Shown piece after piece: positions 29,825 to 64,000 of a DNA stretch of 64,000 bases (positions within the stretch are counted from its first letter, which is position 1; the number at the start of each line of letters is the position of its first letter). Below the pieces are notes generated by a model that ran no database searches, was not told the origin of the DNA, and was given only the letters and a program-made list of their open reading frames with translations. The DNA is taken from the NCBI RefSeq assembly GCF_902364025.1, contig NZ_CABJCG010000010.1, positions 62,001 through 126,000 on the forward strand, given 5' to 3'. The translations under genes were made by a program, and so were the position numbers. Source of the DNA: Enterocloster lavalensis (GTDB lineage Bacteria; Bacillota; Clostridia; Lachnospirales; Lachnospiraceae).

Positions 29825-32662
29825 ATGAATCGTGAGTTTGAGAGTGGAAATGGATTTGATCAGGAGGAGATGAACGGCGCAGGGCAGAGCCGCCGCAGAC
29901 CGGCGGCTGGCCGGCAGGCGGACAGCGCTGCCGCGGGCAGGCCGTCGGGGATAGAGCGCCCGGCGAGGCCGGCAGGCGGGGATTCGGCTGGCCGTACATC
30001 CGGAACCTATAGGACGGCGGGCCGCGCGGAGTACGGTGCGGGAGAAGCAGGCGCAGCCAGACGTCCGGCGGGAAGCGCGGGTCAGACAGCGGCGGGAGAC
30101 ACGGCCGGGCGGAGAACAGCGGCCGCGGCCGGGGGAAGGCCGGACGCCGCCCGTTCAAGACGCGCGGATGCAGGGGCTGCGGGCGGTTACGCCGGCGGCC
30201 GCGCTGCGCTTCAGGGAGCGGCCGGACGGACCGCGGCGGCTGCGAGCGCGGATGGCCGGACCGGAGCCAATGGGCTTGGAACCGGCGGTCGGACTGCGGC
30301 TGGAGCTGCGGGTGCGGGAAGCCGCGCTGCCGGAGGTGCAGCGCCGTCCGGAAGCAGAGGCCAGATGGCGGGCGGAAGCGGCGGAGTTGGAGCGAGAGGC
30401 CAGATGGCGGGCGGAAGCGCTGTTACCGGAGCGAGGAGCCAGGCAGCGGGAGGAAGCGCCGGAGTTGGAGCGAGAGGCCAGATGGCGGGCGGAAGCGCTG
30501 TTGCCGGAGCGAGAGGCCAGATGGCGGGCGGAAGCACCGCCGCCGGAGCGAGAGGCCAGATGGCGGGCGGAAGCGCTGTTGCCGGAGCGAGAGGCCAGGC
30601 AGCGGGCGGAAGCACCGCCGCCGGAACGAGAACCCAGGCAGCCAACGGAAGCACTGCCGCCGGTGCGAAAACTCCGGCAGCGGGCAGAACCGCCGCCGGA
30701 GCGAGAACCCAGGCAGCAGGCGGAACCGCCGCCGGGCCAAGAACCCAGTCCCCTAACGGAACCACGGCCGGTTCAAGACCCCAGACGCCCGGTGCGGGCG
30801 CAACCGGCGCCCGGCGCGCCGGGCAGCCCGGCAATGTTCCGGGAACCGCCACTGCGGCAGGCAGACAGGGCGCAGCCGCGGGGCAGCGCGCTGCCGGTGG
30901 AGACCGCCCGCGTTTTAAAGGCGAGACTGGCGGGGCGGTAGGCGCCAGAGCGGCCGGAAACGGAACCGACGGCTGGATCGATCTGGATGAGAGCGGCCCA
31001 AAGACGGACCGCAAAGGGGGCGGCTCCGGAAACGGAGGCAACCGCGGAACCGGCGGAGGCCGGGGAAATGGCGGGGGAAGCGGCAAGCAGAGCTCAGAGA
31101 ACCGCTATTGGCGCAAAGTGATGATCGGCGTGATCGTGGTGGAGCTGCTGTTCCTGGCATTACTGTTCCTGGTGATCGTGCCCGTCAAAAAGAAGCTGAA
31201 CTCGATTCAGCGCAACCCCAACATCAACATGGCGGAGATGACGAACCCGAACCTGTCCTACGAGAAAGTGGAAAGTATGAAGGGGTTCTGGACTGTGGCG
31301 CTGTTCGGCGTTGACAGCCGGAACAATTCCCTGGGCAAGGGGAACAACGCGGACGTAAACATTATCTGCAACATAAATCAGGATTCGGGCGAGATCAAAC
31401 TGGTCAGCGTGTTCCGCGATTCGTATCTGAACATAGATGAGGAAGGAAGCTATAATAAGATCAACCAGGCGTATTTCAAGGGTGGCCCGGATCAGGCGGT
31501 CAAGGCGCTGAACCGGAACCTGGATCTGGAGATTGACGATTATGCCGTGTTCAACTGGAAGGCCGTTATCGACGCCATCAACATTCTGGGCGGTGTGGAC
31601 ATCGAGCTGAGCAAGGCGGAGTTCTACTACATCAATGCATTTATCACAGAGACGGTGCAGGCCACCGGAGTCGGCTCCGTACAGTTGACCCACGCGGGCA
31701 TGAATCATATGGACGGCGTTCAGGCGGTGGCTTATGCCAGACTGAGAAAGATGGACACGGACTTTGCCAGAACGGAGCGCCAGAGAAAGGTCATTCAGCT
31801 GGCCTTTGACAAGCTGAAAAAAGCGGATTTTGCGGTTGTGAACAACGTTATGGAGGTTGTGCTGGGCCAGATCGAGAGCAGCGTGGACTTAAACGATCTG
31901 ATCCCCCTGGCGAAAACCGTGACCAAATTCTATATCGGGGAGACAACAGGCTTCCCCCAGGCCAGAGGCGACCTCAACATGGGGAAAAAGGGCGACTGCG
32001 TAATTCCGCAGACGCTGGAGAGCAATGTGGTGCTGCTGCATCAGTTCCTGTTTGGGGATGATAATTACGAGCCCAGTGAAATGGTCAAAAAGATCAGTTC
32101 CAAGATCGCGGCGGACTCGGGACTTTATAAAGAAGGTAAACCCATAGACCACGTGGGCACGGACGGCGGATATATTCCTAAACCGACCCAGGCGCCCAAG
32201 GCCACAACGGCTGCGGAGACGGAGGAGGAGAACGAGGAGAAAACCACCGCGTTCGAGACGGAACCCGGTATTATCGACGGGGAATTCCCGGACGGCCTGG
32301 AGCTGGAAACAGACGAATTCGGCAATGTGATCGACCCGCCGGAGGACGAAGATCCGCGGTACCCGGGCGGAACCGGCACATACCCCGGCGGAGGAACCGG
32401 CAGCTACCCGGGAGGCGGAACCAGACCGTCACAGCCCGGCAGCGACAGGCCCACGTCTTCCAGCACGGCGGCTTATCCGGGCGCAGGGGCGACAACCTCA
32501 CCGGACGATGTATCCGGCCCCGGAGCGGCGACGGCGCCCACCAGGTCCCCGTACAACAATAACCCGACTGTACCTTCAACCACCAGGGCGTCGGAACCCA
32601 CGGAGAACAACAGCACGGGAGGCCCCGGATCAGTGATTTTGGGCCCGGGCGGGAACGGTTGA
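29825..32662 (+). CDS. LytR-CpsA-Psr family protein with long repeat-rich N-terminal tail
   Basis: 945 residues. A cytoplasmic Ala/Gly/Arg-rich tail (1-425) comes before one membrane segment (about 430-452) and an LCP domain (about 489-690). The LCP landmarks are 'VALFGVDSRN', 'VSVFRDSYLNI', and 'AYARLRKMDTDFARTERQR' with the conserved Arg/Asp set. LCP enzymes move undecaprenyl-linked polymers to peptidoglycan. Residues 177-325 are about twelve copies of a 12-13-residue repeat (RGQMAGGSAVAGA-like). The C-terminal tail (780-945) is Pro/Gly/Thr-rich. Directly after the initiating transferase, it probably attaches this cluster's polymer to the wall. The start at 29825 is the first ATG, with GAGGATGACGC upstream. 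Confidence 0.9.
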   Translation: MNREFESGNGFDQEEMNGAGQSRRRPAAGRQADSAAAGRPSGIERPARPAGGDSAGRTSGTYRTAGRAEYGAGEAGAARRPAGSAGQTAAGDTAGRRTAAAAGGRPDAARSRRADAGAAGGYAGGRAALQGAAGRTAAAASADGRTGANGLGTGGRTAAGAAGAGSRAAGGAAPSGSRGQMAGGSGGVGARGQMAGGSAVTGARSQAAGGSAGVGARGQMAGGSAVAGARGQMAGGSTAAGARGQMAGGSAVAGARGQAAGGSTAAGTRTQAANGSTAAGAKTPAAGRTAAGARTQAAGGTAAGPRTQSPNGTTAGSRPQTPGAGATGARRAGQPGNVPGTATAAGRQGAAAGQRAAGGDRPRFKGETGGAVGARAAGNGTDGWIDLDESGPKTDRKGGGSGNGGNRGTGGGRGNGGGSGKQSSENRYWRKVMIGVIVVELLFLALLFLVIVPVKKKLNSIQRNPNINMAEMTNPNLSYEKVESMKGFWTVALFGVDSRNNSLGKGNNADVNIICNINQDSGEIKLVSVFRDSYLNIDEEGSYNKINQAYFKGGPDQAVKALNRNLDLEIDDYAVFNWKAVIDAINILGGVDIELSKAEFYYINAFITETVQATGVGSVQLTHAGMNHMDGVQAVAYARLRKMDTDFARTERQRKVIQLAFDKLKKADFAVVNNVMEVVLGQIESSVDLNDLIPLAKTVTKFYIGETTGFPQARGDLNMGKKGDCVIPQTLESNVVLLHQFLFGDDNYEPSEMVKKISSKIAADSGLYKEGKPIDHVGTDGGYIPKPTQAPKATTAAETEEENEEKTTAFETEPGIIDGEFPDGLELETDEFGNVIDPPEDEDPRYPGGTGTYPGGGTGSYPGGGTRPSQPGSDRPTSSSTAAYPGAGATTSPDDVSGPGAATAPTRSPYNNNPTVPSTTRASEPTENNSTGGPGSVILGPGGNG
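30355..30800 (+). repeat. Coding tandem repeat, about 12 copies of a 36-39-base unit
   Basis: Within the LCP gene a unit beginning around GGCCAGATGGCGGGCGGAAG recurs every 39 bases and then every 36 bases in the last four copies. It encodes R-G-Q-M/A-A-G-G-S-x-x-x-G-A. Drift grows towards the 3' end, as in slippage-expanded repeats. Confidence 0.8.
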
Positions 32663-38886: not shown

Positions 38887-40320
38887 TTGGGAGAGAGCGA
38901 TAAGAACCAGGATGAGATAAAGGAAAATCCCGCCGGTCCGGAGGACAAGGGCCAGGCGCGGGATGACGATCAATATGAGAAGGTATGTTACATATGCCGC
39001 AGGCCGGAGAGCAAAGCGGGAACCATGATCTCCATGCCCGGGGGTATGAACCTCTGTCACGACTGCATGCAGAAGGCATTTGACACGGTGACCAAGAGCG
39101 GCATGGACCTCTCCAAGCTGCCCGGGATGCCGTATATGAACATGAATCTCAACGAGATGAATTTAAACCAGCCCGGTATGGAGATTCCCAAGAAGCAGAA
39201 GATCCGCAAGAAAGCGGACAAACAGCCGGCGCTGTCCATGAAGGATATCCCGGCTCCGCACCAGATCAAGGCCCGGCTGGACGAGTACGTGATCGGCCAG
39301 GAGAAGGCTAAGAAGGTGGTTTCCGTGGCCGTTTACAACCATTACAAGCGCGCGTTCCTGGATGGGAAGCCTGAGGAGGAGACCGTCCCCGGGCCGGATG
39401 AGGAAGTGACCATCGAGAAATCCAACATTCTGATGATCGGCCCCACGGGCAGCGGCAAGACGTATCTGGTGAAAACCCTGGCCCGGCTGCTGGACGTGCC
39501 CCTGGCCATCGCGGACGCCACCTCCCTGACGGAGGCGGGGTATATCGGAGACGACATCGAAAGCGTGGTCAGCAAGCTGCTGGCCGCTGCGGACAACGAT
39601 GTGGCGCGCGCCGAAAAGGGCATCATTTTCATCGATGAGATCGACAAGATCGCCAAGAAAAAGCAGACCAACACCCGGGACGTCAGCGGCGAATCCGTGC
39701 AGCAGGAGCTACTAAAGCTGCTGGAGGGCAGCACGGTGGAGGTGCCGGTGGGGTCCAACCAGAAGAACGCCATGACGCCCATGGCTACGGTCAATACGGA
39801 CAATATCCTGTTTATCTGCGGCGGCGCGTTCCCCGACCTGGAGGAGATCATTAAGGAGCGGCTGACCAAAAAGTCCTCCATGGGCTTCGGCGCGGTGCTG
39901 CGGGATACCTTTGACAAGGATCCCAACCTGCTTAGCTACGTGACCAACGAGGATTTGCGGACCTTTGGCATGATCCCCGAGTTCCTGGGACGCCTGCCCA
40001 TGACGGTGACCCTTCAGGGGCTGGACCGGGATATGATGGTGCGCATCCTCAGAGAACCGAAGAACGCCATCACCAAGCAGTATGAGAAGCTGCTGGCCAT
40101 GGACGAGGTCCGGCTGGTGTTTGAGGACGACGCCCTGGACTGGATCGCCGGGGAGGCCATCAAGCGGGGCACGGGCGCCAGAGCGCTGCGGGCTATCCTG
40201 GAGGAGTTCATGCTGGATATCATGTATGAGATTCCCAAGGACTCCAACATCGGCTCCGTGGTGGTCACCCGTCCGTACCTGGAGAAGAGCGGCGGGCCGC
40301 TGATCCGAATGCGCGGCTGA
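38887..40320 (+). CDS. clpX: ClpX-like ATPase, divergent
   Basis: 477 residues, longer than typical ClpX (about 420). The zinc-binding domain has C34-C37 and C57-C60. The AAA+ core has Walker A GPTGSGKT (about 185-192), pore loop GYIG (about 218) and Walker B 'IIFIDEIDKI' (about 246-255). Two functional loops deviate: the RKH substrate loop reads NQKNAMT, and the ClpP-docking IGF loop reads MGF (332-334). Start is a TTG at 38887, with GAGGAG 8 bases upstream. ClpX unfolds proteins for ClpP; no clpP is adjacent. It may be a second, specialised copy. Confidence 0.85.
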   Translation: MGESDKNQDEIKENPAGPEDKGQARDDDQYEKVCYICRRPESKAGTMISMPGGMNLCHDCMQKAFDTVTKSGMDLSKLPGMPYMNMNLNEMNLNQPGMEIPKKQKIRKKADKQPALSMKDIPAPHQIKARLDEYVIGQEKAKKVVSVAVYNHYKRAFLDGKPEEETVPGPDEEVTIEKSNILMIGPTGSGKTYLVKTLARLLDVPLAIADATSLTEAGYIGDDIESVVSKLLAAADNDVARAEKGIIFIDEIDKIAKKKQTNTRDVSGESVQQELLKLLEGSTVEVPVGSNQKNAMTPMATVNTDNILFICGGAFPDLEEIIKERLTKKSSMGFGAVLRDTFDKDPNLLSYVTNEDLRTFGMIPEFLGRLPMTVTLQGLDRDMMVRILREPKNAITKQYEKLLAMDEVRLVFEDDALDWIAGEAIKRGTGARALRAILEEFMLDIMYEIPKDSNIGSVVVTRPYLEKSGGPLIRMRG

Positions 40321-40371: not shown

Positions 40372-40440
40372 TTATTCCCTCAGATGAAGAAATGTCTGGA
40401 ACAGATCCAGCGCGCCATACCCCCACTCGCGGTTGGGGGA
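40372..40440 (-). pseudogene. C-terminal remnant of an S8 (subtilisin-like) peptidase gene split by the prophage
   Basis: Read on the minus strand, this stretch encodes SPNREWGYGALDLFQTFLH, then LRE and a TAA stop (40372-40374). The block 'NREWGYG' plus 'LDL' is the usual C-terminal ending of Clostridia S8 peptidases of the Csp/subtilase type. The frame continues only to 40470, where it meets the integrase end. No S8 catalytic domain is present, so the rest should lie beyond the right end of the prophage. The junction (attL) is between about 40435 and 40467. Confidence 0.7.
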
Positions 40441-40467
40441 GCGAAAGTTAATACAAACAAAAGAGCG

Positions 40468-41889
40468 TCAAAGAAAATCGATAAAGTTTACGAAACTGTT
40501 ATCTGCATTAAGATGTATTTCTTTTATAATCGAACGCCAAAATGCCTGTTTGTTCTGGCGGGACAGATGTTCGTACATTTCGTGCCAGCCGGAGTGCAAA
40601 ACTGTCTCAAGCTCCTTATAGGATCGCTTGGGAGCCGGGAGCGTCTCGATTGACATAGCCTTGATGTCGGACGAAATACGTTCATACTCAGAATCGTATT
40701 TTTCATCAGATATACGTCCTTTTTGGTACATGTTATTCAACCGATCAAGCTCAGCAAGCAGTTTTTCCTTGCTGGGCTTTTTCTTTTCTACGGGGGCCTG
40801 AGCACTGATCCTTGTCAACAAAATTTCTTCCCGCTGGCGGTAACGCTCCTTTTCCTCATCGATATGACCGAGAAGATACTTTTCAATCGTGGCCTCGCTC
40901 GCTATCTTGCTATAAGTGCACGACTTTTTATAGCACCAGTTCTGGCAGCGATAATAGCGAAGAGGATCCTTTAGAGGTTTGCCAGTATGACTATTTTTGG
41001 TAATCCTATTTGCACTCATAGGACGCCCGCAGATGGGGCAATGTATCAGTCCGCAAAATAGATACACCTCTCCAGTTCCGAGATTGCTTTGATATACTTT
41101 GATATTTTTCCGATTGATTTCGCGGATCTGGATGTACTGATCGAACGTAATGTAAGCCGGGCAATAGTTTGGGTTTTCCCGGTAGGCACCGAAGTACATT
41201 GTATTTTTGCACATGGTTATAACTTGGCTCATTGTGATAACTGGGCCGTATTTTTCGGTCAAGTACAGAAACGCTCCGCGTTTTGATTGATGGACCAAAA
41301 AGTGGCGAAAGAATTCTTCCACATACAATTCGCGTTCCGGATCCTTCACGACAACTTTGGCACCAGATTCATTCCGAACCACTTTATAACCGTATGGCTG
41401 AGCTCCGGAGATGGCCTTGCCAAGGCGGACCGATGCCTCATTCACGAAGCATATGCGCTCAGAGGTCGTATCAGTTTCGTTCTGATTGATCGACAACATA
41501 ATGTTGACATTCAGACGCCCCTCACGCGTCTCCATATTCATATTCGGCTCGGCCGTAGCGATCCAGCGGGCTCCATGGGCGTCTAAGATATCTTGCACCT
41601 TATAGAAATCACCAACATTTCGAAACCAGCGGTCCATCTTCCAAAAAATGATAACATCGATTTCGTTCCGTTTGACAGAACTTAGCAGATTTTTAATTTC
41701 TTTTCGATCACGTAGGTTTTTACGTGCAGTTTTACCTTGATCAGCATAGACGCCGGCCACTACCATGTCGTGATCTTTGGCATACTGGGTAAGGTAGCTC
41801 AGTTGAGCCTCCAGGGATTTGCCATGCATGGCCTGCTCTGCAGTAGACACACGAATATAGATTGCACATCGAAGCACTTTTTTCACCAC
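40468..41889 (-). CDS. Large serine recombinase (phage integrase)
   Basis: 473 residues. The resolvase domain has 'CAIYIRVSTAEQ' with catalytic Ser15 and downstream 'IIFWKMDRWFRN' with the conserved Arg. A recombinase domain and a zinc ribbon (CGLIHCPICG and CQNWCYKKSC) follow, and a coiled-coil segment lies near residues 350-410. This enzyme integrates and excises the prophage without homology. The start is a GTG at 41889 or the adjacent GTG at 41886, with GAGGAG about 10 bases away. It sits at the extreme left end, next to attL, facing the host gene. Confidence 0.93.
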   Translation of the reverse strand: MVKKVLRCAIYIRVSTAEQAMHGKSLEAQLSYLTQYAKDHDMVVAGVYADQGKTARKNLRDRKEIKNLLSSVKRNEIDVIIFWKMDRWFRNVGDFYKVQDILDAHGARWIATAEPNMNMETREGRLNVNIMLSINQNETDTTSERICFVNEASVRLGKAISGAQPYGYKVVRNESGAKVVVKDPERELYVEEFFRHFLVHQSKRGAFLYLTEKYGPVITMSQVITMCKNTMYFGAYRENPNYCPAYITFDQYIQIREINRKNIKVYQSNLGTGEVYLFCGLIHCPICGRPMSANRITKNSHTGKPLKDPLRYYRCQNWCYKKSCTYSKIASEATIEKYLLGHIDEEKERYRQREEILLTRISAQAPVEKKKPSKEKLLAELDRLNNMYQKGRISDEKYDSEYERISSDIKAMSIETLPAPKRSYKELETVLHSGWHEMYEHLSRQNKQAFWRSIIKEIHLNADNSFVNFIDFL

Positions 41890-41941: not shown

Positions 41942-42078
41942 TTGCCAGAACGTCCCTGAGATGATATAATGCAGTTGCATACTTTTTGTTTCTTATCATC
42001 TTCATCAGGGACTGAAAACTCTGGAAGGGTAAGAATCTGCAAAAGTCTCCGTGTTCCCGCACGGGGGCTTTTGTTTTT
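41942..42078 (+). ncRNA. Candidate small RNA between integrase and hicB
   Basis: Plus-strand -35 TTGCCA (41942-41947), 17-base spacer, -10 TATAAT (41965-41970), predicted start near 41977. About 100 bases follow, ending in a hairpin (AAAAGTCTCCGTG / CACGGGGGCTTTT, about 42037-42070) and TGTTTTTT. No open frame with a ribosome site is visible in it. Complementary pieces TTGCA/TGCAA and TTCTTA/TAAGAA suggest folding. It runs opposite to its minus-strand neighbours. Confidence 0.5.
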
Positions 42079-42482
42079 TAGTTCCGCGGCTGTACGTTGA
42101 GGTATTCCATCAGGGACACCTCCAGCAGTCGGGAATAATTCACATCATTGACTTCAGCCAATTCCTTCAGCCAAGATGGAATGGTAACATTCGTTTTGAC
42201 CCGCCGGTTGCGCATTTCGTTCCGGACCAGATCCGGGAAAATTGTTACGGGAGATACGAGGCAGCCGTCGCTATCCTCCGGGGAAATTGCCAGGGACGGA
42301 TCAGGAAGAACCTCGCCGCCTCTTTCCATGCCATATACATGCAATTCCAGCGACTCCCTGGCGTCTGCCTGCGCCGCCTCGATATCCTTACCATATCCAA
42401 TACACCCGGGAAGGTCAGGAAAGTATACACTGTAACCGTCTGCCGATGGCTCCAGAACCGCCAAATAAGTCAATTTCCGCAT
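42078..42482 (-). CDS. hicB: HicB-family antitoxin
   Basis: 134 residues. The N-terminal half is the HicB partial RNase H-like fold ('YSVYFPDLPGCIGYGKDIEAAQADARESLELHVYGME'), and the C-terminus has a ribbon-helix-helix-like segment ('RVKTNVTIPSWLKELAEVNDVNYSRLLEVSLMEYL', split by a loop) for DNA binding. AAGGAG 10 bases upstream selects the ATG at 42482 over a GTG at 42491. It lies 33 bases after the toxin gene and should neutralise HicA and repress the operon. Confidence 0.9.
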   Translation of the reverse strand: MRKLTYLAVLEPSADGYSVYFPDLPGCIGYGKDIEAAQADARESLELHVYGMERGGEVLPDPSLAISPEDSDGCLVSPVTIFPDLVRNEMRNRRVKTNVTIPSWLKELAEVNDVNYSRLLEVSLMEYLNVQPRN

Positions 42483-42515
42483 AATTTGCACGCTCCTTTT
42501 TTGATGGCGGGGCTT

Positions 42516-42698
42516 TTATTTTAGCCCCGCTTGTTTTAGGATACTGTTTAATGTACCTTTTGCGATATCCCCGGAATGCTTTGGTACTGTGACCTTGCCT
42601 TTTTTGGTCGGATGTTCGTACTGTACATGCGACCCCTTTGTTTCGCTTTCGTACCATCCATCATCCCGGAGAAGTTTAACTATCTCTCGTACAGTCAT
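42516..42698 (-). CDS. hicA: HicA-family mRNA interferase toxin
   Basis: 60 residues, the standard HicA size and double-stranded-RNA-binding-like fold: 'MTVREIVKLLRDDGWYES', then 'KGSHVQYEHP' with the catalytic His24, and 'VPKHSGDIAKGTLNSILKQAGL'. HicA cleaves mRNA when not bound by HicB. TAAGGAGG lies just before the ATG. A strong promoter with a palindrome sits upstream. It provides prophage stability or abortive defence; which is not visible. Confidence 0.93.
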   Translation of the reverse strand: MTVREIVKLLRDDGWYESETKGSHVQYEHPTKKGKVTVPKHSGDIAKGTLNSILKQAGLK

Positions 42699-43335: not shown

Positions 43336-43971
43336 CTAAAATTTTCCTCTTAACTCAACTACCTTGCCTATGATCTTTACGGGTTTTTTGACGATGTCCT
43401 CATTAGTAAATACCATAGGCTCATATTTGGAATTGTTCGACAAAAGCATGATTCCACCATCATATTTTTTGAGACGTTTGCAAGTAGCCTCATCACCGTT
43501 GACCATGGCGATAATCACTTCGCCACTTTCGGCGTCGTCTTGCTGCCGGACTATGACAACATCACCTTCATACATTCTTGGTTCCATGGAATCACCATGA
43601 ATCTGGAGGCCAAAAAAATCCCCGGTATTTGCCATTTCTTCCGATATTTCTTCGGTATCAATAATATCTTCGATTGCCTCAATAGGGACTCCAGCGGCCA
43701 CACGACCAAGGACATTGATGGTAACGCCAGGTTTTTTGTTTTTGACTCCGTTAGTTATTGGGACAACATTATTGTCCCAACCCATAAGATATGCGGGAGA
43801 AATATTTCCAATACTAGCGGCAGCTTCAATTTTATCAGAAGGAATGTTTGTGATAATATTATTTTCATATTTATAGAGAGTCTGCTTTGATACATTAATT
43901 TTATCTGCAAAGTCTACTTGGCTAATACCTAATTTTTCTCTTAAATTTTTGATACGTTCTCCAACGGTCAT
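43336..43971 (-). CDS. CI-like phage repressor (XRE helix-turn-helix plus S24/LexA-like peptidase)
   Basis: About 211 residues. The N-terminal helix-turn-helix is 'LGISQVDFADKINVSKQTLYKYE'. The C-terminal S24 domain has cleavage site A93-G94, nucleophile Ser128 (GDSMEP) and Lys165. Such repressors hold lysogeny and cut themselves upon RecA activation. GGGAG 8 bases upstream selects the ATG at 43971. Its promoter region carries the operator half-sites described in separate entries. Confidence 0.93.
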   Translation of the reverse strand: MTVGERIKNLREKLGISQVDFADKINVSKQTLYKYENNIITNIPSDKIEAAASIGNISPAYLMGWDNNVVPITNGVKNKKPGVTINVLGRVAAGVPIEAIEDIIDTEEISEEMANTGDFFGLQIHGDSMEPRMYEGDVVIVRQQDDAESGEVIIAMVNGDEATCKRLKKYDGGIMLLSNNSKYEPMVFTNEDIVKKPVKIIGKVVELRGKF

Positions 43972-43993
43972 TTCTATAACTCCCTTCTGCATG

Positions 43994-44109: not shown

Positions 44110-44310
44110 TTGATTAGAACTGATGAATTAAGAGGAATCATTGCGAAAAATGGCTATTCTCAATCAGATATTGCAGCTAAAATAGGAATTACGCCAAAAA
44201 CATTTTATGAAAAAATGAAAAACGGTGTTTTTGGTAGTGATGAAATTCAGATTATGATTGATGAATTGCTTATTGATGATCCAATGCCTATTTTTTTTGC
44301 CAAAGAGTAA
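44110..44310 (+). CDS. Cro-like small helix-turn-helix protein
   Basis: 66 residues with 'LRGIIAKNGYSQSDIAAKIGITPKTFYEKMKNG', a DUF739-like phage helix-turn-helix. The start is a TTG at 44110, with AAAGGAGG about 10 bases upstream. As first gene of the rightward early operon and opposite the CI-like repressor, it probably acts as Cro. Confidence 0.82.
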   Translation: MIRTDELRGIIAKNGYSQSDIAAKIGITPKTFYEKMKNGVFGSDEIQIMIDELLIDDPMPIFFAKE

Positions 44311-46119: not shown

Positions 46120-46184
46120 GGAAAATCAAGGCTTTTCGGCCTTTTTCGGACTCGATCAAAGGATTAACTTTGGAGGTAGAGGAC

Positions 46185-46967
46185 ATGCACAGGTATAAGC
46201 AGATTGAGTACAAGGCGGGGGCCACGCTGGAGATCATCAAGTGCGTGCCAAAGGGTTTGCGGACAGGATGCGGCCGGGGGAAGCGAAAAACAAAAGAGGA
46301 GATCACCAAAGCCAATATGCGGCAGGCGGCCCGCAAACTGGTGCGTAAGATCAACGCGAATTTCAGGCCGGGGGACTGGCATGTAATCCTGACTTACCGC
46401 AAGACGACCAGGCCAGACCGGCAGGAAGCCCGAAAGGCGCTGAGCGGGCTCCTGGAGAAGCTGCGGGCAGAGTACAGGAAGCACGGCTTCCAACTCAAAT
46501 ACATCCATGCGACGGAGTACGAGAACAAGGCGATCCACCACCATCTGATCATCAACAACGTGAACGATGGGAAGCGGACCACCTCAGACTACATCCGCAA
46601 GCTCTGGAAGGACCGCGGAAGTCCGAAGTTCGTCGGTCTATATGATGATGGGGAATATCAAAAGCTGGCGGAATACATCGTCAAAGAGACGGAAAAGACA
46701 TTCCGACAGGCGGACAGTCCGTCCAAACAGCGATATTCCTGTAGCCGGAACCTAATTACACCGTGGCCGCGGCGCCGGACTAGGACCACCAAGAAGGGAT
46801 GGGACATGGACCCCAAACCGAGGAAGGGCTATTACATATTACCGGGCAGCCTGTACAACGGGACGGACAAGCTGGGCTATCCATACCAGCGTTACACGAT
46901 GGTCAAGATCGCCCCGGAACCGTCAGACTGGGAGCCGGCGCTCTGGCCGGACGAGGGAGGTGGATAA
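46185..46967 (+). CDS. HUH-type rolling-circle replication-like protein
   Basis: About 260 residues. 'WHVILTYRKTTRP' and the HUH motif in 'KAIHHHLIIN' (H118-H120) mark a Rep-type HUH endonuclease; Y164 followed by K167 (EYIVK) would be the nicking tyrosine. This matches phage proteins grouped as rolling-circle-replication-associated proteins. The start is the ATG at 46185, supported by GGAGG at 46172-46176. A role in starting phage DNA replication is plausible; the nicking site is not identified. It is unusual in a head-module siphovirus prophage. Confidence 0.78.
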   Translation: MHRYKQIEYKAGATLEIIKCVPKGLRTGCGRGKRKTKEEITKANMRQAARKLVRKINANFRPGDWHVILTYRKTTRPDRQEARKALSGLLEKLRAEYRKHGFQLKYIHATEYENKAIHHHLIINNVNDGKRTTSDYIRKLWKDRGSPKFVGLYDDGEYQKLAEYIVKETEKTFRQADSPSKQRYSCSRNLITPWPRRRTRTTKKGWDMDPKPRKGYYILPGSLYNGTDKLGYPYQRYTMVKIAPEPSDWEPALWPDEGGG

Positions 46968-56697: not shown

Positions 56698-57234
56698 ATG
56701 ATTGTCAATCAAAAAGAATTAGCGCAATGCCTTGATATATCGACGCGCCAGGTCAGAAATCTGAAGTCAGAGGGACTGTTCCAGACGGTCGAAAACAGCA
56801 GAGGATACAGCCTGGAAAAGTGTGTACGCGAGTACATCAATTTTAAGGTCAATGCGGAAACGGACAGGCGGACACATATCACGAAAGAGGAAATACAGGC
56901 GCAGCACGAAGAGGTGAAAAAACAGATATCGGTATTGAAGCTCAGAACACTGAGGCGAGAGCTCCATGAGGCAGCACATGTGGAGGCATTTTTGGGCAAC
57001 ATGTTGGCAGCGTTTCGCAACAGACTCCTCTCACTTCCACCAAAACTCGCGATGCAACTAAGCGGAGAAACAGATCTGAACGAGATGATCCGCATTATCA
57101 AAAAGGAGCTGGAAAATACCCTTGAAGAGCTCGCTGATTACGATCCGGATGAAATAGACGGAACGATCCATAGCGAGAGCGAGGAGGACGAGCCAGAGGA
57201 GGATATTGACGAGGAGGACGAAGAAGAGGGATAA
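56698..57234 (+). CDS. terS: Terminase small subunit (Nu1-like)
   Basis: 178 residues. The N-terminal winged-helix 'VNQKELAQCLDISTRQVRNLKSEGLF' is Nu1-like and recognises the packaging site; a helical middle and a long Asp/Glu tail (150-178) follow. AAGGAGGGAAAGG precedes the ATG. It lies 2 bases before terL. Lambda-type terminases make cohesive ends. Confidence 0.88.
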   Translation: MIVNQKELAQCLDISTRQVRNLKSEGLFQTVENSRGYSLEKCVREYINFKVNAETDRRTHITKEEIQAQHEEVKKQISVLKLRTLRRELHEAAHVEAFLGNMLAAFRNRLLSLPPKLAMQLSGETDLNEMIRIIKKELENTLEELADYDPDEIDGTIHSESEEDEPEEDIDEEDEEEG

Positions 57235-57236
57235 CC

Positions 57237-59093
57237 ATGGGGTACAAAAACAGATCACGAAAAAAAACCAAGAATCTGTTTCGCCGAGTAATCCGAAGGA
57301 CCCTTGCAAAACCAGAGGAATTGACCGTCAGCCAGTGGGCAGAAAAGTACCGGGTGTTAGACGAGTCGAGCAATATCAGCGGAAAATGGTCCAACGATGT
57401 GACGCCGTATCTGGTGGGAATCATGGATACCATGAACGACGACTATATACGCGAGGTATATCTGTGCAAGGGATCACAGTTGGGGGGGACGGAGGTCATG
57501 ATCAATATGCTGATGTATATTATCGACAAGACGCCGGCTCCCACCATGATTGTATACCCGTCCGACGATTTGGCAAAAGACGTATCCAACGACAGGTTGA
57601 AGCCGGCATTCCGGCTATCGCCAAGGATTAAGCGTGGATTCTTGGAGAATTCTTCGAAGGAGCTGCGGCTGAAGTTCAGGACCATGGCGCTGTACCTGCG
57701 GGGAGCCGGGTCTCCGTCAAAGCTGGCATCAAAGGCGATCAAGTATCTGTTTTTCGACGAGATCGACAAGATGGCCGGAGCCTCACAAAAAGAGGCGTCG
57801 CCATATAACCTTGCCATGGAACGAATCAAAACATATAAGGCGCAAAGCAAGGTATACGCATGCTCAACCCCAACCGTGTCAACAAATTACATATGGCAAC
57901 TACACGATAATGCAGACGAGGTGAGACACTATTTTGTGCCGTGCCCCCACTGCGGCGAAATGATCGAGCTACAATGGAAGCAGATCAAGTATGTGGAGGA
58001 CGAAGAAAAAAAACTAAGTCCGCGCGATCGGGCAATGACAGCGAAATATATATGCCAGGAATGCGGCTGCGTGATACAAGACAAGGACAAACCCAAAATG
58101 CTGCGGCTCGGAGAATGGAGAGCCGTAAAGAAACGGGGGATTGGAAGGCCGAAAACAGTTGGGTTCTGGATTAACTCTCTATACAGCTTCTTTTTGACTT
58201 GGGCAGACATCGCAGAGGAATTTATCAAGGACAAAAAGGATCCGGAGCTCCTGCAGAACTTCATAAACTCCTGGCTGGCGGAACCGTGGGAGGACACAAA
58301 ACTTAAAACCTCCGCCGAACTGGTGATGGAACGTAAGACCGATATGCCGGAAATGATTGTACCGGCCTGGGGGAAGCTGCTCACCGGAGGAGTGGACATC
58401 CAGGAAGGGAGCTTATACTACACCGTCAGAGCATGGGGGAACCATGTAACCAGCCAAAACATAACGCATGGACAAGTGCTGTCATTTGCGGACATTGAAC
58501 GAATCATGAACCTGGAGTGGGAGCGGGAGGACGGCGCCAAGATGATCGTGAACCTGGCGCTAATTGATTCCGGATTCCAGCCAGACAATACCTACGATTT
58601 CTGTATCACAAATGCGGACTGGGCCATGCCGTGCAAGGGAGCAAGCAATCCTATGCACAATCATTATCATATCAGCCAGATCAACAAGCCGGGGAGTAGG
58701 GTGGACGGAATTAAGCTGGTCATGATCGATGGCGGGAAATATAAGGACAATATCGCAGCGCGGATGCAGAGGGCCAATGGGCCAAATACGGGAAGCTGGA
58801 TGGTCAGCCGGGATTGCGATGAAGACTACGCGCAGCAGGTAACGGCAGAGCACAAGATTAGCATCCGGAAAGGCAACGGGAAGGTGGTCCAGGAATGGCA
58901 ACAGAAGAAATCACATGGGGACAACCACTACCTCGATGCAGAAGTATATGCGATGGCGGCGGCGGACATTCTGGGCGTGCGTAGCCTGCACCTAGAGCCA
59001 GAGCAGACCGGCCGTAGCGAAAAGCCACAACAGGAGGAACAAGCACAGAATGAGAATTGGGTTCAGGCGGAGCCTGAATGGATAGGAGGATAA
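57237..59093 (+). CDS. terL: Terminase large subunit (lambda gpA-like)
   Basis: 618 residues. The ATPase part has 'LCKGSQLGGTEVMINML' in the Walker A position, as in the gpA family's deviant loop, and 'YLFFDEIDKM' as Walker B. The nuclease half has 'CPHCG', 'CQECGC' zinc knuckles (residues 235-285) and 'GVDIQEGSLYYTVRAWG' and 'DAEVYAMAAADIL' metal Asp residues. It packages phage DNA into heads with TerS. Confidence 0.92.
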   Translation: MGYKNRSRKKTKNLFRRVIRRTLAKPEELTVSQWAEKYRVLDESSNISGKWSNDVTPYLVGIMDTMNDDYIREVYLCKGSQLGGTEVMINMLMYIIDKTPAPTMIVYPSDDLAKDVSNDRLKPAFRLSPRIKRGFLENSSKELRLKFRTMALYLRGAGSPSKLASKAIKYLFFDEIDKMAGASQKEASPYNLAMERIKTYKAQSKVYACSTPTVSTNYIWQLHDNADEVRHYFVPCPHCGEMIELQWKQIKYVEDEEKKLSPRDRAMTAKYICQECGCVIQDKDKPKMLRLGEWRAVKKRGIGRPKTVGFWINSLYSFFLTWADIAEEFIKDKKDPELLQNFINSWLAEPWEDTKLKTSAELVMERKTDMPEMIVPAWGKLLTGGVDIQEGSLYYTVRAWGNHVTSQNITHGQVLSFADIERIMNLEWEREDGAKMIVNLALIDSGFQPDNTYDFCITNADWAMPCKGASNPMHNHYHISQINKPGSRVDGIKLVMIDGGKYKDNIAARMQRANGPNTGSWMVSRDCDEDYAQQVTAEHKISIRKGNGKVVQEWQQKKSHGDNHYLDAEVYAMAAADILGVRSLHLEPEQTGRSEKPQQEEQAQNENWVQAEPEWIGG

Positions 59094-59331: not shown

Positions 59332-60852
59332 ATGAACTGGTTAGACCGTGCAATCGAATGGATTTCGCCGGAAACGGCTTATGAGCGGAAGGCATACCGC
59401 CGGGCATTGGAACAGGAACGCAATTATGACGCGGCCGGATTCGACCGCGTCAATTCAAATTGGCGAGTAATTAACGAATCAGCGGAAATGACGGACCGCT
59501 ATGGCCGGGATGTAGTCAGGGCAAGAGCCAGGGACCTGGAGCGCAATTCCGACATCATGGGCGCGGTGATCGGAGCCTATAAGCGCAATGTTTTCGGGAG
59601 GGGATACCGCCTGAGAGCAGGCAGCGGAGACGAAAAGCTGGACACCAGGATCGAGGAGCTGTGGGAAATTTGGTGTAAAAAGAAAAACTGCGACGTAACG
59701 GGGACACAGAGCTTTAACGCCATGATGCGCATGGCGGTCAGGCGCAAGAAGATTGATGGTGGAATTATTTTTCTGAAGCGCTACACCGCCGGCGGGCTGG
59801 TTCCGTTCAAACTCCAGGCTATCGAGGTTGATGAGCTGGACGCCAATTCAATGTGCCCGCATAAAAAAGGAAACCGGGTGGTCGGAGGCATTGAGTATAA
59901 TCCATACAACCGGCCGGTCGGATATTGGATCAAGCAGTACAGCATCGATGGAATGGACATCACGGACCCGACTTTTATCGAGGAAAAAGAGGTTATATTT
60001 TTCTTTACAAAAAATCGGCCGTCACAAATTCGGGAAATATCAGACATGACGCCTACAATCACCAGAATCAGAGACGCGAATGAATTCATGCGGGCGGTTT
60101 CTGTCAAAGAAAGGATATTATCGTGCTTGGCAGTATTCATTACCCGAAAATTGCCAGAGGCCGGAAAGAGTCCGGGAAGAGGAATAACGGCCGGAGTGCA
60201 GGGCGAATCGAACGAGCGATATCAGGGAAAGACACTGACCCCGGGCATGATTCAATATCTGAATCAGGGGGACGAGGCACAGGTAGTGAACCCAAGCGGG
60301 CAGGCAACCGATGCCACGGCATATACAAAACAGGAGATACGACTGGTTGGTGCGGGACAGGGACTAAGCTATGAGACAGTCAGCCGCGACATGTCGGAAA
60401 GTAATTACAGTTCCGCGAGGCAGGGGATGATCGAGGATGATCTGACATATGAGGAGGACAAGGAACAGTTGATGGAGGTAATGGACGAAATCTACGAAAC
60501 CTTTGTCATATCCCTCGTGCTCAGCGGGAAAATAGCCGTACCGGATTTCTGGGACAAAAAAGACGGATATTTGGCGCACAAATGGATCCAGGCGCCCAAA
60601 CGCTGGATCGATCCATTAAAGGAGGCTAATGCAAACAAAATAGCCCTAAATACCGGGCAGAAAACATGGGCCAGCCTTGCGGCGGAGAACGGACGAGATT
60701 GGAAAGAACAGATCGACGAGATGGCCGAGATATTGGCGTACGGCGATAGCAAAGGAATCGACATGGGAGGGATCATATTTGGAAAAGCCGACAAGCAGCC
60801 TGCTGCGGGAGCAGGCGCGAAAGAAACAAACGGAAATGCGGGGAAATCTTAG
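59332..60852 (+). CDS. Phage portal protein (lambda gpB-like)
   Basis: 506 residues. 'RARARDLERNSDIMGAVIGAYKRNVFG' and 'MRMAVRRKKIDGGIIFLKRY' match the lambda portal family, with the stem region 'GLSYETVSRDMSESNYSSARQGM' near 340-365. It forms the dodecameric channel for DNA entry. GGAGGTAGCGG precedes the ATG. The 3' end overlaps the protease gene. Confidence 0.92.
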   Translation: MNWLDRAIEWISPETAYERKAYRRALEQERNYDAAGFDRVNSNWRVINESAEMTDRYGRDVVRARARDLERNSDIMGAVIGAYKRNVFGRGYRLRAGSGDEKLDTRIEELWEIWCKKKNCDVTGTQSFNAMMRMAVRRKKIDGGIIFLKRYTAGGLVPFKLQAIEVDELDANSMCPHKKGNRVVGGIEYNPYNRPVGYWIKQYSIDGMDITDPTFIEEKEVIFFFTKNRPSQIREISDMTPTITRIRDANEFMRAVSVKERILSCLAVFITRKLPEAGKSPGRGITAGVQGESNERYQGKTLTPGMIQYLNQGDEAQVVNPSGQATDATAYTKQEIRLVGAGQGLSYETVSRDMSESNYSSARQGMIEDDLTYEEDKEQLMEVMDEIYETFVISLVLSGKIAVPDFWDKKDGYLAHKWIQAPKRWIDPLKEANANKIALNTGQKTWASLAAENGRDWKEQIDEMAEILAYGDSKGIDMGGIIFGKADKQPAAGAGAKETNGNAGKS

Positions 60853-61425: not shown

Positions 61426-62946
61426 GTGACAAGACAGGAGATTTTAAAGCGACAGCAGGAAATTGTCGATGCCGCAAAACGAGAAAACAGGGAACTGACA
61501 GCAGCAGAGCGGGCAGAGTTCGACGATCTTCAGCGCCAGTTTGAGGAGCTGCCGGATGGGGCAGAAGGACAAGAGGGGGCGCAGGGGCAGAGAACGGCGC
61601 AAACGACCGTGACAGAGCGGCAGCAGGTCCAGGACCCGCAGCAGGCGGCCCAGCGCGCAATCGCGGCCGAACGCAAAAGAGCGGCAGACATTACAAGCCT
61701 GTGCCGCAGCTTCGGGATTTCGCCGGAGGAGTACATCAATAACGGTTCCACAATGGACCAGGTAAGGGAAGCAGTATTGGGAAGATTACAGCAGACCGGT
61801 GCGCCAGTCAATGCGCGCGTAACCGCGGATGAGGGGGACAAGTTTCGCAGCCGCGCTTCAGATGGAATGCTGTTAAGAGCAGGAATCGCAGTTCAGTCGC
61901 CGGCAGAGGGAGCCAATCAGATTCGGGGGATGAGCCTGCGGGACCTGGCAATCGAATGCTATTCCAGAGAGGGAGAGGACGCCATGCACTACCTCAGAAT
62001 GGACTCGTCCGAACTGTACAGCAATCTCTGCCGCCAGTTTTATAACCCGACGGCCGCATTTCCATCAATCCTGGACAACACCATTCGCAAGAGCATCGTG
62101 CAGTTGTACAACCAGGTGCCCACCACTTTTCAGGCATGGACTACAAAGGGAAGCCTTAGCGATTTTAAGGAGACGCCAGATCACGAGTATGTAATGGGAG
62201 GACTGGGAGACTTTGAAGAAGTTCCGGAAAACGGAGAGATCAAGGCAGATGTACCCAGAACAGAACTGCTCCCGAGCAGACGGCTGAAAACCTACGGGAA
62301 ACAGTTCAGCATGACCCGACAGGCGTTCATTAACGATGACATTGGATTCCTGACGAAGATTCCGGGAGCGTATGCAACCAAGGCCAAAATGACGCTTGAC
62401 AAGCAGGTGTACTCCTTGATCTTCAATAACAAAAAGATTTTTGATGGGAAGCCGTTATTTGACGACGCGCACGCCAATGTATTGCCGACGGGCGCAAAAC
62501 CGTCCCAGCAGACGATCCAGAAAATGATCCTCAAGATGCAGAGGCAGAAAGATCAGTTCGGAGAAGCAATCTATATAATTCCGAAATGGATCATTGTGCC
62601 GGTGGGGTATGAATTCGATCTGGCCGTAATCCTGCATTCCACACAGGTGACGGGGTCGAACAACAACGACATCAATCCGCTGTACAATTATCCAATCAAC
62701 ATTGTCCAGACGCCGGTGCTCAATGCCATGGCAGCAGGCAAGGCGGCACCGTGGTTCATGGTAGCGGACCCGATGAGCGCAAAATCAATTCAGGTAGATT
62801 ACCTGAACGGCCAGGAAACCCCGATTGTGAGAAGGATGGAGACACCGGGAACCCTTGGATTTACGTGGAACATTTACACCGACTGGGGCATTGCAGTCAG
62901 GGACTTCCGTGGGATTAACAAGAACCCCGGAGAAGTGATTGAATAG
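61426..62946 (+). CDS. Major capsid protein with N-terminal scaffold domain
   Basis: 506 residues. Residues 1-110 are charged and coiled, like the delta/scaffold domain removed by the protease. The remainder shows capsid landmarks 'YGKQFSMTRQAFINDDIGFL' and 'GKPLFDDAHANVLP' with C-terminal 'TDWGIAVRDFRGI', as in gpT/HK97-fold capsids. GTG start at 61426 after AGGAGGTAAC. Forms the head shell. Confidence 0.88.
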   Translation: MTRQEILKRQQEIVDAAKRENRELTAAERAEFDDLQRQFEELPDGAEGQEGAQGQRTAQTTVTERQQVQDPQQAAQRAIAAERKRAADITSLCRSFGISPEEYINNGSTMDQVREAVLGRLQQTGAPVNARVTADEGDKFRSRASDGMLLRAGIAVQSPAEGANQIRGMSLRDLAIECYSREGEDAMHYLRMDSSELYSNLCRQFYNPTAAFPSILDNTIRKSIVQLYNQVPTTFQAWTTKGSLSDFKETPDHEYVMGGLGDFEEVPENGEIKADVPRTELLPSRRLKTYGKQFSMTRQAFINDDIGFLTKIPGAYATKAKMTLDKQVYSLIFNNKKIFDGKPLFDDAHANVLPTGAKPSQQTIQKMILKMQRQKDQFGEAIYIIPKWIIVPVGYEFDLAVILHSTQVTGSNNNDINPLYNYPINIVQTPVLNAMAAGKAAPWFMVADPMSAKSIQVDYLNGQETPIVRRMETPGTLGFTWNIYTDWGIAVRDFRGINKNPGEVIE

Positions 62947-62957
62947 GAGGAATTTGC

Positions 62958-63299
62958 ATGAAAGCAACATATATTCAGCCGGGTGGAAACCTGGACTATA
63001 AAAACAACGGAGACGCCGCGATTGAAGCGGGTGATGTGGTGGTATTAGGAGACAGGGCGGGAATCGCAGGGACGCCGATTCCAGTTGGAGAATTGGGCAG
63101 CATTGTGATGGATGGTGTCTACAAGATCGCAAAGAAGTCGGGAGAAGCGATCAAGGCAGGAAAGGACGCGTATGTTTCGGACGAAGGGATAACCGGAACC
63201 AGCCCGGCCCCCGCAGAGGGAGGATTACCGAAAATCGGGTACGCCGTGGAGGACGCGGCAGAAGGAGACGCATACGTGAAAGTCAAATTGCAGGCGTAA
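62958..63299 (+). CDS. DUF2190-family capsid decoration-like protein
   Basis: 113 residues: 'MKATYIQPGGNLDYKNNGDAAIEAGDVVVLGDRAGIAG', 'ELGSIVMDGVYKIAKKSGEAIKAGKDAYV' and 'KIGYAVEDAAEGDAYVKVKL' give the DUF2190 beta-barrel pattern. It sits right after the capsid gene and probably decorates or stabilises it. AGGAGG precedes the ATG. Confidence 0.9.
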   Translation: MKATYIQPGGNLDYKNNGDAAIEAGDVVVLGDRAGIAGTPIPVGELGSIVMDGVYKIAKKSGEAIKAGKDAYVSDEGITGTSPAPAEGGLPKIGYAVEDAAEGDAYVKVKLQA

Positions 63300-63311
63300 G
63301 GAGGGCTTAAA

Positions 63312-63563
63312 ATGGCATACACACCACATATATGGGTGAATGGAGAGCTTATCACCGCAGAGAAACTGAACGATCTGGAACAGGCTGCCGGACAGGCCGC
63401 AAAGCCGGGACCAAAAGGAGATAAAGGCGATCCGGGGGAGGGGCTTACAGGAAAAGCCGTTGCGGTCGCAGACCTTGCAGCAGACGCCGGAGCCGAGGCG
63501 ATTGTGGCCAAAATTAATGATATCCTGGCGAAATTGCGGGCGCGCGGCGTCATCGGATCGTGA
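63312..63563 (+). CDS. Collagen-like head-fibre protein
   Basis: 83 residues. An N-terminal 'HIWVNGELITAEKLNDLEQ' anchor is followed by Gly-X-Y triplets 'GPKGDKGDPGEG' and a helical 'AEAIVAKINDILAKLRARG'. This is the phage head-fibre layout (short collagen stalk). Overlaps the following gene by 4 bases. Confidence 0.8.
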   Translation: MAYTPHIWVNGELITAEKLNDLEQAAGQAAKPGPKGDKGDPGEGLTGKAVAVADLAADAGAEAIVAKINDILAKLRARGVIGS

Positions 63564-63907
63564 TGAGCGCGTTCAAAGACATCCTCCGGAAAGACAATGC
63601 GCGCGTATTCCTGAACCCGAACGAGTTCGGGGAGGAGCATATGGTCGGAAACAAACGCATGGTGATCAGCATAGACAACAATGAGATGGTGGAACGAGAA
63701 AAACGCAGAACCGCGCAAGGCGACCTAATGAGCTACAGGCAGGGGGTGTTCAAAGAAACAGTCCTATTCTATGTTCTGGCGCAGGATTACGGGCCACTAC
63801 CAGCGGTAGGACGTAGGCTGGAACTGGACGGAAAACAGTATATCATCTCAGACGCAATCAACGAAGACGGAATCTATTCGATCAGTCTGGAGGCGCAGAG
63901 GTCATGA
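63563..63907 (+). CDS. Head-tail connector/neck protein
   Basis: 114 residues, ATG at 63563 directly after a GTG at 63560. 'LFYVLAQDYGPLPAVGRRLELDGKQYIISDAINEDGIYSISLEA' resembles the beta-barrel stopper/neck proteins (lambda FII-like). ATGA overlap upstream and overlap downstream. Confidence 0.65.
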   Translation: MSAFKDILRKDNARVFLNPNEFGEEHMVGNKRMVISIDNNEMVEREKRRTAQGDLMSYRQGVFKETVLFYVLAQDYGPLPAVGRRLELDGKQYIISDAINEDGIYSISLEAQRS

Positions 63908-64000
63908 GCTCATTGATTTTAATTGGCGTTGACATGGATCGTGTCAACGCCATTTTTCGAAAGCTGGAGAACAAAGGGACCCAAAACGAGGCAATGAAAA
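63904..64000 (+). CDS. Tail-completion protein (HK97 gp10-like), 5' end only
   Basis: The ATG at 63904 overlaps the previous stop and begins MSSLILIGVDMDRVNAIFRK. The gene runs off the window. Position after the neck gene fits the tail-completion family. Only 32 residues are visible, so the call rests on context. Confidence 0.5.
   Translation, partial: MSSLILIGVDMDRVNAIFRKLENKGTQNEAMK

Follow-up and report, generated by a model that had tools for sequence, protein, structure and literature searches.

A Csp-family S8 peptidase gene of Enterocloster lavalensis is split near its 3' end by a prophage carrying a large serine recombinase

We found that a prophage interrupts the gene of a subtilisin-like (S8) peptidase in Enterocloster lavalensis, leaving the last codons of the gene next to the large serine recombinase gene of the prophage in the window (the whole stretch of DNA analysed, 64,000 nucleotides). 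Such a split had been proposed in an earlier note made from the DNA letters, and it was borne out by the intact gene in relatives and by fusion proteins of the same species; the splitting of the S8 gene and its restorability are both well supported. We hold it to be highly probable that a temperate siphophage-type phage with a serine recombinase integrates into the 3' end of a Csp-family gene, at the PNRE/WGYG codons. After a host segment, the window covers the left part of a prophage of siphophage type, which continues past position 64,000. The relevant features of the window are the following.

38887..40320, plus strand: host ClpX-like gene adjoining the split gene, used as the marker for finding the empty site
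40372..40438, minus strand: 3' fragment of the Csp-family S8 peptidase gene, the host half of attL (last 21 codons and stop)
40426..40438, minus strand: CCCCAACCGCGAG, the largest stretch possibly common to attP and attB, within which the crossover would lie
40439..40467, minus strand: phage half of attL, without a match to the sister genome described below
40468-41889, minus strand: large serine recombinase (integrase), 473 aa (phrog_95 integrase 1.1e-90; Resolvase PF00239)
42078..42491, minus strand: HicB-like antitoxin (PF15919)
42516..42698, minus strand: HicA toxin (PF07927)
43336..43992, minus strand: CI-like repressor (HTH and Peptidase S24)
44110..44310, plus strand: small HTH protein opening the rightward early region (weak HTH matches; probably Cro-like, judging by position)
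46170..46967, plus strand: replication initiation protein (phrog_3584)
56698..57234, plus strand: terminase small subunit (phrog_57)
57237..59093, plus strand: terminase large subunit (phrog_15)
59332..60852, plus strand: portal protein (phrog_21)
61426..62946, plus strand: major head and protease protein (phrog_4523/133)
62958..63907, plus strand: head decoration protein (62958-63299, phrog_122) and minor tail protein (63560-63907, phrog_2551)

The structural genes shared 65-67% DNA identity over parts with Faecalibacterium phage FP_Epona and two other records. HicA and HicB form a toxin-antitoxin pair near the recombinase (42078-42698). Neither an Rfam search nor a tRNA search of the window gave a match.

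At the border between host and prophage, the minus strand reads ...NFIDFL, a stop, RSFVCINFRSPNREWGYGALDLFQTFLHLRE and a final stop at 40374-40372; the peptide encoded by 40438-40372 on this strand is PNREWGYGALDLFQTFLHLRE, followed by the stop. The degenerate pattern PNRE[WF]GYG had a single match in the 64 kb, at 40415-40437 on the minus strand, where 0.00 were expected from 100 shuffles. We compared the window with the sister genome, [Clostridium] asparagiforme DSM 15981 (locus L003), whose host segments are 92-93% identical in nucleotide sequence, and observed that identity to the intact S8 gene ends at 40438, 29 bases from the recombinase stop. The bases between, 40439-40467, resemble those 3' of the stop in related recombinase loci (TTTGTATTAAC vs TTGTACTAA). 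One bound of CCCCAACCGCGAG was set where attL begins to agree with the intact L003 gene, and the other where the fusion proteins described below cease to agree with that gene, at the GAG (E567) codon. The earlier note had read a minus-strand S8 C-terminal tail beside the recombinase and had placed attL near the recombinase 3' end. Both readings held: the tail is present, an intact S8 gene stands at the same place in L003, and identity to L003 breaks at 40438. Where the tail was said to start needs correction; the S8 end is real, but the serine before PNREW is phage-derived and the host part begins in the CCCC before AAC (40438).

We surveyed the empty site by searching with the ClpX-like protein of the window and listing the best 80 ClpX-like loci, of which L003 was the best. 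Beside the same ClpX-like gene, L003 carries an intact, convergent S8 peptidase gene of 584 aa ending in SYPNREWGYGALDLFQTFLHLRE. Among the matches listed, a peptidase relative was found at 54 of the 80 loci; 46 of these lay less than 500 bases from the ClpX-like gene (36 convergent and 10 in the same direction), 8 lay farther away, and at one of the 54 (L012) the gene was cut by the contig end. The other 26 loci had no peptidase relative in the stretch covered, and at 16 of them the gene can be called absent because 10 kb downstream was covered. Prophage-free relatives have a whole gene at the site and not merely the short tail. Across 295 relatives, 167 genomes gave a peptidase match at E <= 1e-100. 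Two peptidase copies ended early (before residue 570, among the matches listed) and neither was an insertion: the G011 copy was frameshifted, the remainder of the gene continuing after the shift, and the G072 copy met a contig end. Beyond the matches listed, more split copies may occur. The G011 copy on contig 13 (L109/L124), at an intact site, is frameshifted near the catalytic serine, which may be genuine or an assembly error; a database protein of 528 aa (P0243), whose contig is also 122,970 bases long, looks like the same copy.

If the gene is split, the species should encode a protein that matches the peptidase exactly as far as the junction and turns foreign beyond it. A protein database search with the L003 peptidase returned 12 intact proteins (P0001-P0012) of 584 aa and 98% identity to the query, among them P0008, an S8 family peptidase of Enterocloster lavalensis. 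It also returned eight fusions (P0013-P0020; seven of 619 aa and one of 599 aa) that follow the peptidase sequence to ...SYPNRE, residue 567, and then continue into foreign sequence, YMLIQTFDRPQYKTGALFFSFLGLLPQSLKSFWIRLWPSFRLCFRFCLLERL (52 aa) or near variants of it. One 619-aa fusion, P0014, is named E. lavalensis. The N-terminal S8 fragment that the earlier note had said should exist was in this way recovered in the same species, as database proteins in which matching residues 1-567 are joined to foreign sequence. The claim of an interrupted protease stands, with the amendment that the lysogen form, instead of being a bare truncation, is a fusion of 619 aa in which the foreign tail makes up 52 aa. 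A database recombinase from E. lavalensis, P0121, listed as 100% identical, differs from the window recombinase at 2 internal residues; database recombinases P0122-P0132 share 65-85% identity with that of the window. The longest contig has 85,848 bases for P0014 and P0121 alike, which is circumstantial evidence that fusion and recombinase lie on one contig.

We then joined four of the eight fusions to the window tail and compared the products with the 12 natural intact proteins. Residues 1-567 of P0014 plus the window WGYGALDLFQTFLHLRE gave a 584-aa protein that differed from each of the 12 at 1-4 residues, and the three other fusions, joined to WGYGALDLFQTFLHLRE, gave 2-5 differences of 584. 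The two gene halves thus rejoin exactly at the protein level, with the 5' half coming from database proteins and not from one DNA molecule. The idea that exact excision would restore the gene is supported to this extent, as the joined halves make an ordinary 584-aa protein.

After a further protein search, with P0102 as the query, the 147 csp-type proteins listed in this search and in that with the L003 peptidase were checked against an intact-end pattern. Fifteen failed it: the eight fusions, P0101, P0102, P0022, P0241, P0242, P0243 and P0261. P0101 (...YPNG) and P0102 (...YPNREY) change at the same codons as the E. lavalensis fusions, and their altered residue shows foreign sequence, whether the end is a stop or a contig end. 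P0101, which is on three contigs, and intact P0073 share 100% identity over residues 1-564, so a second species has both the intact and the interrupted state; P0102 is on one contig of 2,731 bases. The remaining proteins were rejected as split copies: frameshifts appear to explain P0022, P0241, P0242 and P0243, while P0261 fails the pattern by a one-residue change. P0241 and P0242 are Csp-like; ahead of the junction codons their reading frame changes, giving the tail KSPPPVKRVAR, probably through frameshifts.

The intact form has the catalytic triad D107, H186 and S516, and PF00082 is listed for database copies of the peptidase. It matched the NCBIfam CspBA model at 1.3e-89, best over positions 643-1098 (the C-terminal half), with 301 bits against a cut-off of 1250, and the CspC model at 3.4e-73, with 247 bits against a cut-off of 675. 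Because both scores are below the cut-offs of these exception-type models, we named the protein Csp-family and not CspBA or CspC. Its best sequence matches among solved structures are germination proteases. The intact form was modelled with AF2 (37 sequences, mean pLDDT 74.8, pTM 0.83); in a PDB search with this model, ranks 1-11 were all CspA, CspB or CspC chains (E <= 4.7e-33; 22-30% identity), followed by the next match at 1.2e-11. The fold matched CspB of C. perfringens and CspA/CspC of C. difficile over the whole length, including the jelly-roll region (PMC6636752, PMC12880746). The jelly-roll insertion appears to be unique to the Csp family (PMC6636752), and the model has strands at about 308-426 for it. 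Lachnospiraceae Csps are usually single proteins with intact triads (PMC6636752), and the split peptidase likewise has its triad. The sister genome has a second Csp-like protein (L084, 567 aa) that scored 340 bits to CspB, compared with 222 for the split-gene peptidase. The split peptidase, unlike L084, is not the closest CspB homolog in that genome, so we regard the split gene as Csp-family but not as the CspB ortholog. A second Csp closer to CspB makes redundancy possible, and the effect of the split may be small.

In the lysogen form, the last 17 residues of the peptidase are replaced. The lost segment holds G, Y, G, L, L and F residues that are conserved in 132-133 of 133 intact tails, and the fusion lacks both the invariant GYG-x-L-x-L element and the C-terminal helix (575-583 of the model). 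The foreign tail was predicted at block pLDDT means of 27-38, compared with 48-69 for the native end, which is itself moderately confident. From the loss of the element and the helix we infer that the lysogen protein is inactive or impaired; judged by conservation and by models of moderate confidence, loss of function is likely.

We collected relatives of the recombinase at E <= 1e-60 (7 of 295 genomes) and at E <= 1e-125 (6 of 397 genomes); two genomes are common to both lists, giving 11 loci, and the recombinase-proximal flank was read in all 11. No csp tail was found in this flank at any of the 11 loci. Four Lachnospiraceae recombinases of 46-49% identity (L089, L129, L130, L132) adjoin the later part of a substrate-binding-protein gene, and two more of this range and family (L088, L131) adjoin its first part; the L089 gene matches Pfam NMT1-like families, and the genes at the other loci were named by likeness to L089. 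The window recombinase, given these relatives in a substrate-binding gene and the similar bases after the stop, belongs to a gene-invading family and uses another target. The six loci, together with L090-L092 (recombinases of ~35%), lie inside what is apparently one kind of substrate-binding-protein gene, at two insertion places, the FGADK codons and, farther along, the EFEP codons, and this gene looks like a recurrent phage landing gene in Lachnospiraceae.

Viral contigs yielded two recombinase relatives (45-47%) and, for the intact peptidase searched as an alignment, four near-full-length relatives (30-40%); the peptidase searched as one protein, the C-terminal codon pattern and the ClpX-like gene gave no match there. 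Among the matches listed for the phages collection, no recombinase exceeded 48%, and those to the attL stretch, with E values of 2 or worse, were not credible. In plasmids, no recombinase exceeded 33% in the best 6 of 282 matches, and all 282 were below 60%. No phage record or genome with the window junction was found in the viral contigs, the phages collection and the genome sets searched. Near-full-length Csp-like genes occur on contigs classed as viral (L125, L126 and the phages-collection records MT835487 and MT837365), either as host flank or as carried genes.

We also asked how the peptidase is distributed with respect to sporulation. A search of the same 295 genomes for SpoIVA (TIGR02836) gave 221 matches at E <= 0.001, 217 of them above the cut-off. 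SpoIVA was present in 163 of the 167 genomes with the peptidase and in 58 of the 128 without it (Fisher p ~6e-27, a value that ignores kinship and genome incompleteness). The promoter of the split copy itself falls outside the window, and upstream counts were therefore taken from orthologs, with sequences identical over 60 bases collapsed and those of less than 80 bases dropped; the starts were set by alignment, so some ortholog upstream regions will be misplaced. A CATANNNT box preceded the start in 41 of 46 distinct orthologs (at least 45% identity), compared with a mean of 4.1 in 100 shuffles, and CATANNNTA in 28 of the 46, compared with 1.0. In 32 more distant orthologs the corresponding counts were 26 (3.1 shuffled) and 5 (0.9 shuffled). 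We take CATANNNT(A) to be the -10 type of sigma-E/sigma-K promoters. The upstream box of the orthologs also contains TATANT and may be a housekeeping -10. No convincing -35 was seen upstream of the CATANNNT box in the orthologs; the -10 of sprB matched the sigma-E or sigma-K consensus, with an imperfect -35 (PMC4191935). By family and co-occurrence, the prophage appears to lie inside a spore-associated gene.

A mechanism can be outlined from these observations. The phage recombinase would integrate the prophage at the PNRE/WGYG codons, leaving the last 21 codons in attL, and the other host half would run from residue 1 to 567 into the foreign 52-aa end, giving the 619-aa fusion. Recombinase-mediated excision would presumably restore the intact gene. 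Excision might be triggered by a phage directionality factor from the sporulating mother cell, as for SPbeta/spsM and skin/sigK, and the intact protein might thereby be made for the spore. By analogy with these elements, regulated excision in the mother cell is a tentative idea. Equally tentative is a developmental germination switch, in which the prophage would stay in the forespore genome and related phages would behave likewise at the same codons elsewhere.

Three other explanations need to be weighed. Host and phage sequence may have been wrongly joined in assembly, so that the gene is not split at all; the window has only one prophage end, which would allow this, but only 29 bases separate the junction from the recombinase stop, eight database proteins of the species show the matching opposite junction at this codon, and same-codon junctions recur in two further proteins from other hosts, making a chimera very improbable. 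For a split gene, one may ask whether the 619-aa fusion still works, perhaps as an altered protease, so that lysogeny changes activity instead of removing it. The whole triad lies upstream of the junction, only the last 17 residues are replaced, and the reading frame is open in the fusions seen. Against this, the lost segment includes residues that 132-133 of 133 intact tails share, the model gives the new tail low confidence, and in other hosts the tail varies or ends early (P0101, P0102); we consider a working fusion rather unlikely.

Plain lysogeny with insertional loss of the gene bears directly on the switch, and we give it an even chance. Here the gene would be a conserved landing site whose product is lost or altered in lysogens, excision would occur on phage induction only, and no switch would serve the host. 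Recombinases 46-49% identical to that of the window use an ABC-transporter substrate-binding (NMT1-like) gene that has no known developmental role; the phage looks complete and not domesticated; and the second Csp could cover the loss. In the part of the phage that the window covers, we identified neither a directionality factor nor a sporulation-type promoter, and sporulation-type boxes numbered 31 in the whole window, a count not above chance (25.2). What speaks for a switch instead is that the target is a spore-linked gene and that the gene halves are undamaged in the eight fusions seen, both of which are compatible with plain lysogeny too.

The regulated-excision reading draws on elements known to interrupt spore genes. 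SPbeta (PMC4191935), skin of C. difficile (PMC5025042) and gin (PMC5595907) are excised in sporulation by a recombinase acting with a directionality factor, and excision of yin depends on growth phase (PMC10747680). As in this class (skin, SPbeta, yin, gin), the element-encoded serine recombinase of the window adjoins the attachment site. SPbeta in spsM of Bacillus subtilis is likewise a large serine recombinase prophage that splits a spore-related gene restored by exact excision; for SPbeta, however, sporulation excision and the factor SprB with its mother-cell promoter were shown, neither of which was seen for the window prophage, and its target is a spore polysaccharide gene and not a protease gene (PMC4191935). 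Like the window prophage, skin of the gut clostridium Clostridioides difficile carries a serine recombinase and interrupts a spore gene, but it is prophage-like, lies in a sigma-factor gene (sigK) and has a demonstrated directionality factor, CD1234 (PMC5025042), whereas here an apparently complete phage lies in a Csp-family gene. In Clostridium botulinum, yin, predicted to be a functional prophage and carrying a recombinase, lies within the spore-protease gene yabG, whose product processes CspBA; YabG is a cysteine protease, in contrast to the S8 Csp-family target here, and yin was described as unique to one strain, whereas the same-codon junction described here occurs in more than one host (PMC10747680). 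The recombinase lies beside the 5' fragment in yin and in B. subtilis skin, but beside the 3' fragment here (PMC10747680). In Bacillus cereus, gin is likewise a serine recombinase element in a spore gene, gerE, excised in sporulation; it has three recombinases and is without phage genes, unlike the window prophage (PMC5595907).

With the window prophage, the group of prophages that interrupt sporulation genes (skin, SPbeta/spsM, yin/yabG) would gain a new member. We found no report in the openly licensed literature of a csp gene as the target of such an element. Spore-gene elements have so far been found in sigK, spsM, gerE and yabG, and a csp target would extend them to the germination step; if the switch is true, the restored Csp protease would let the spores of a gut commensal wake up. 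Same-codon junctions occur in more than one host, which suggests that the arrangement between phage and host is a stable one.

Elsewhere in the window, a LytR-CpsA-Psr family gene (29825-32662) contains tandem repeats of ~39 and ~78 bases at 30338-30784, and the copy number of these repeats differs between the window and the sister genome L003.
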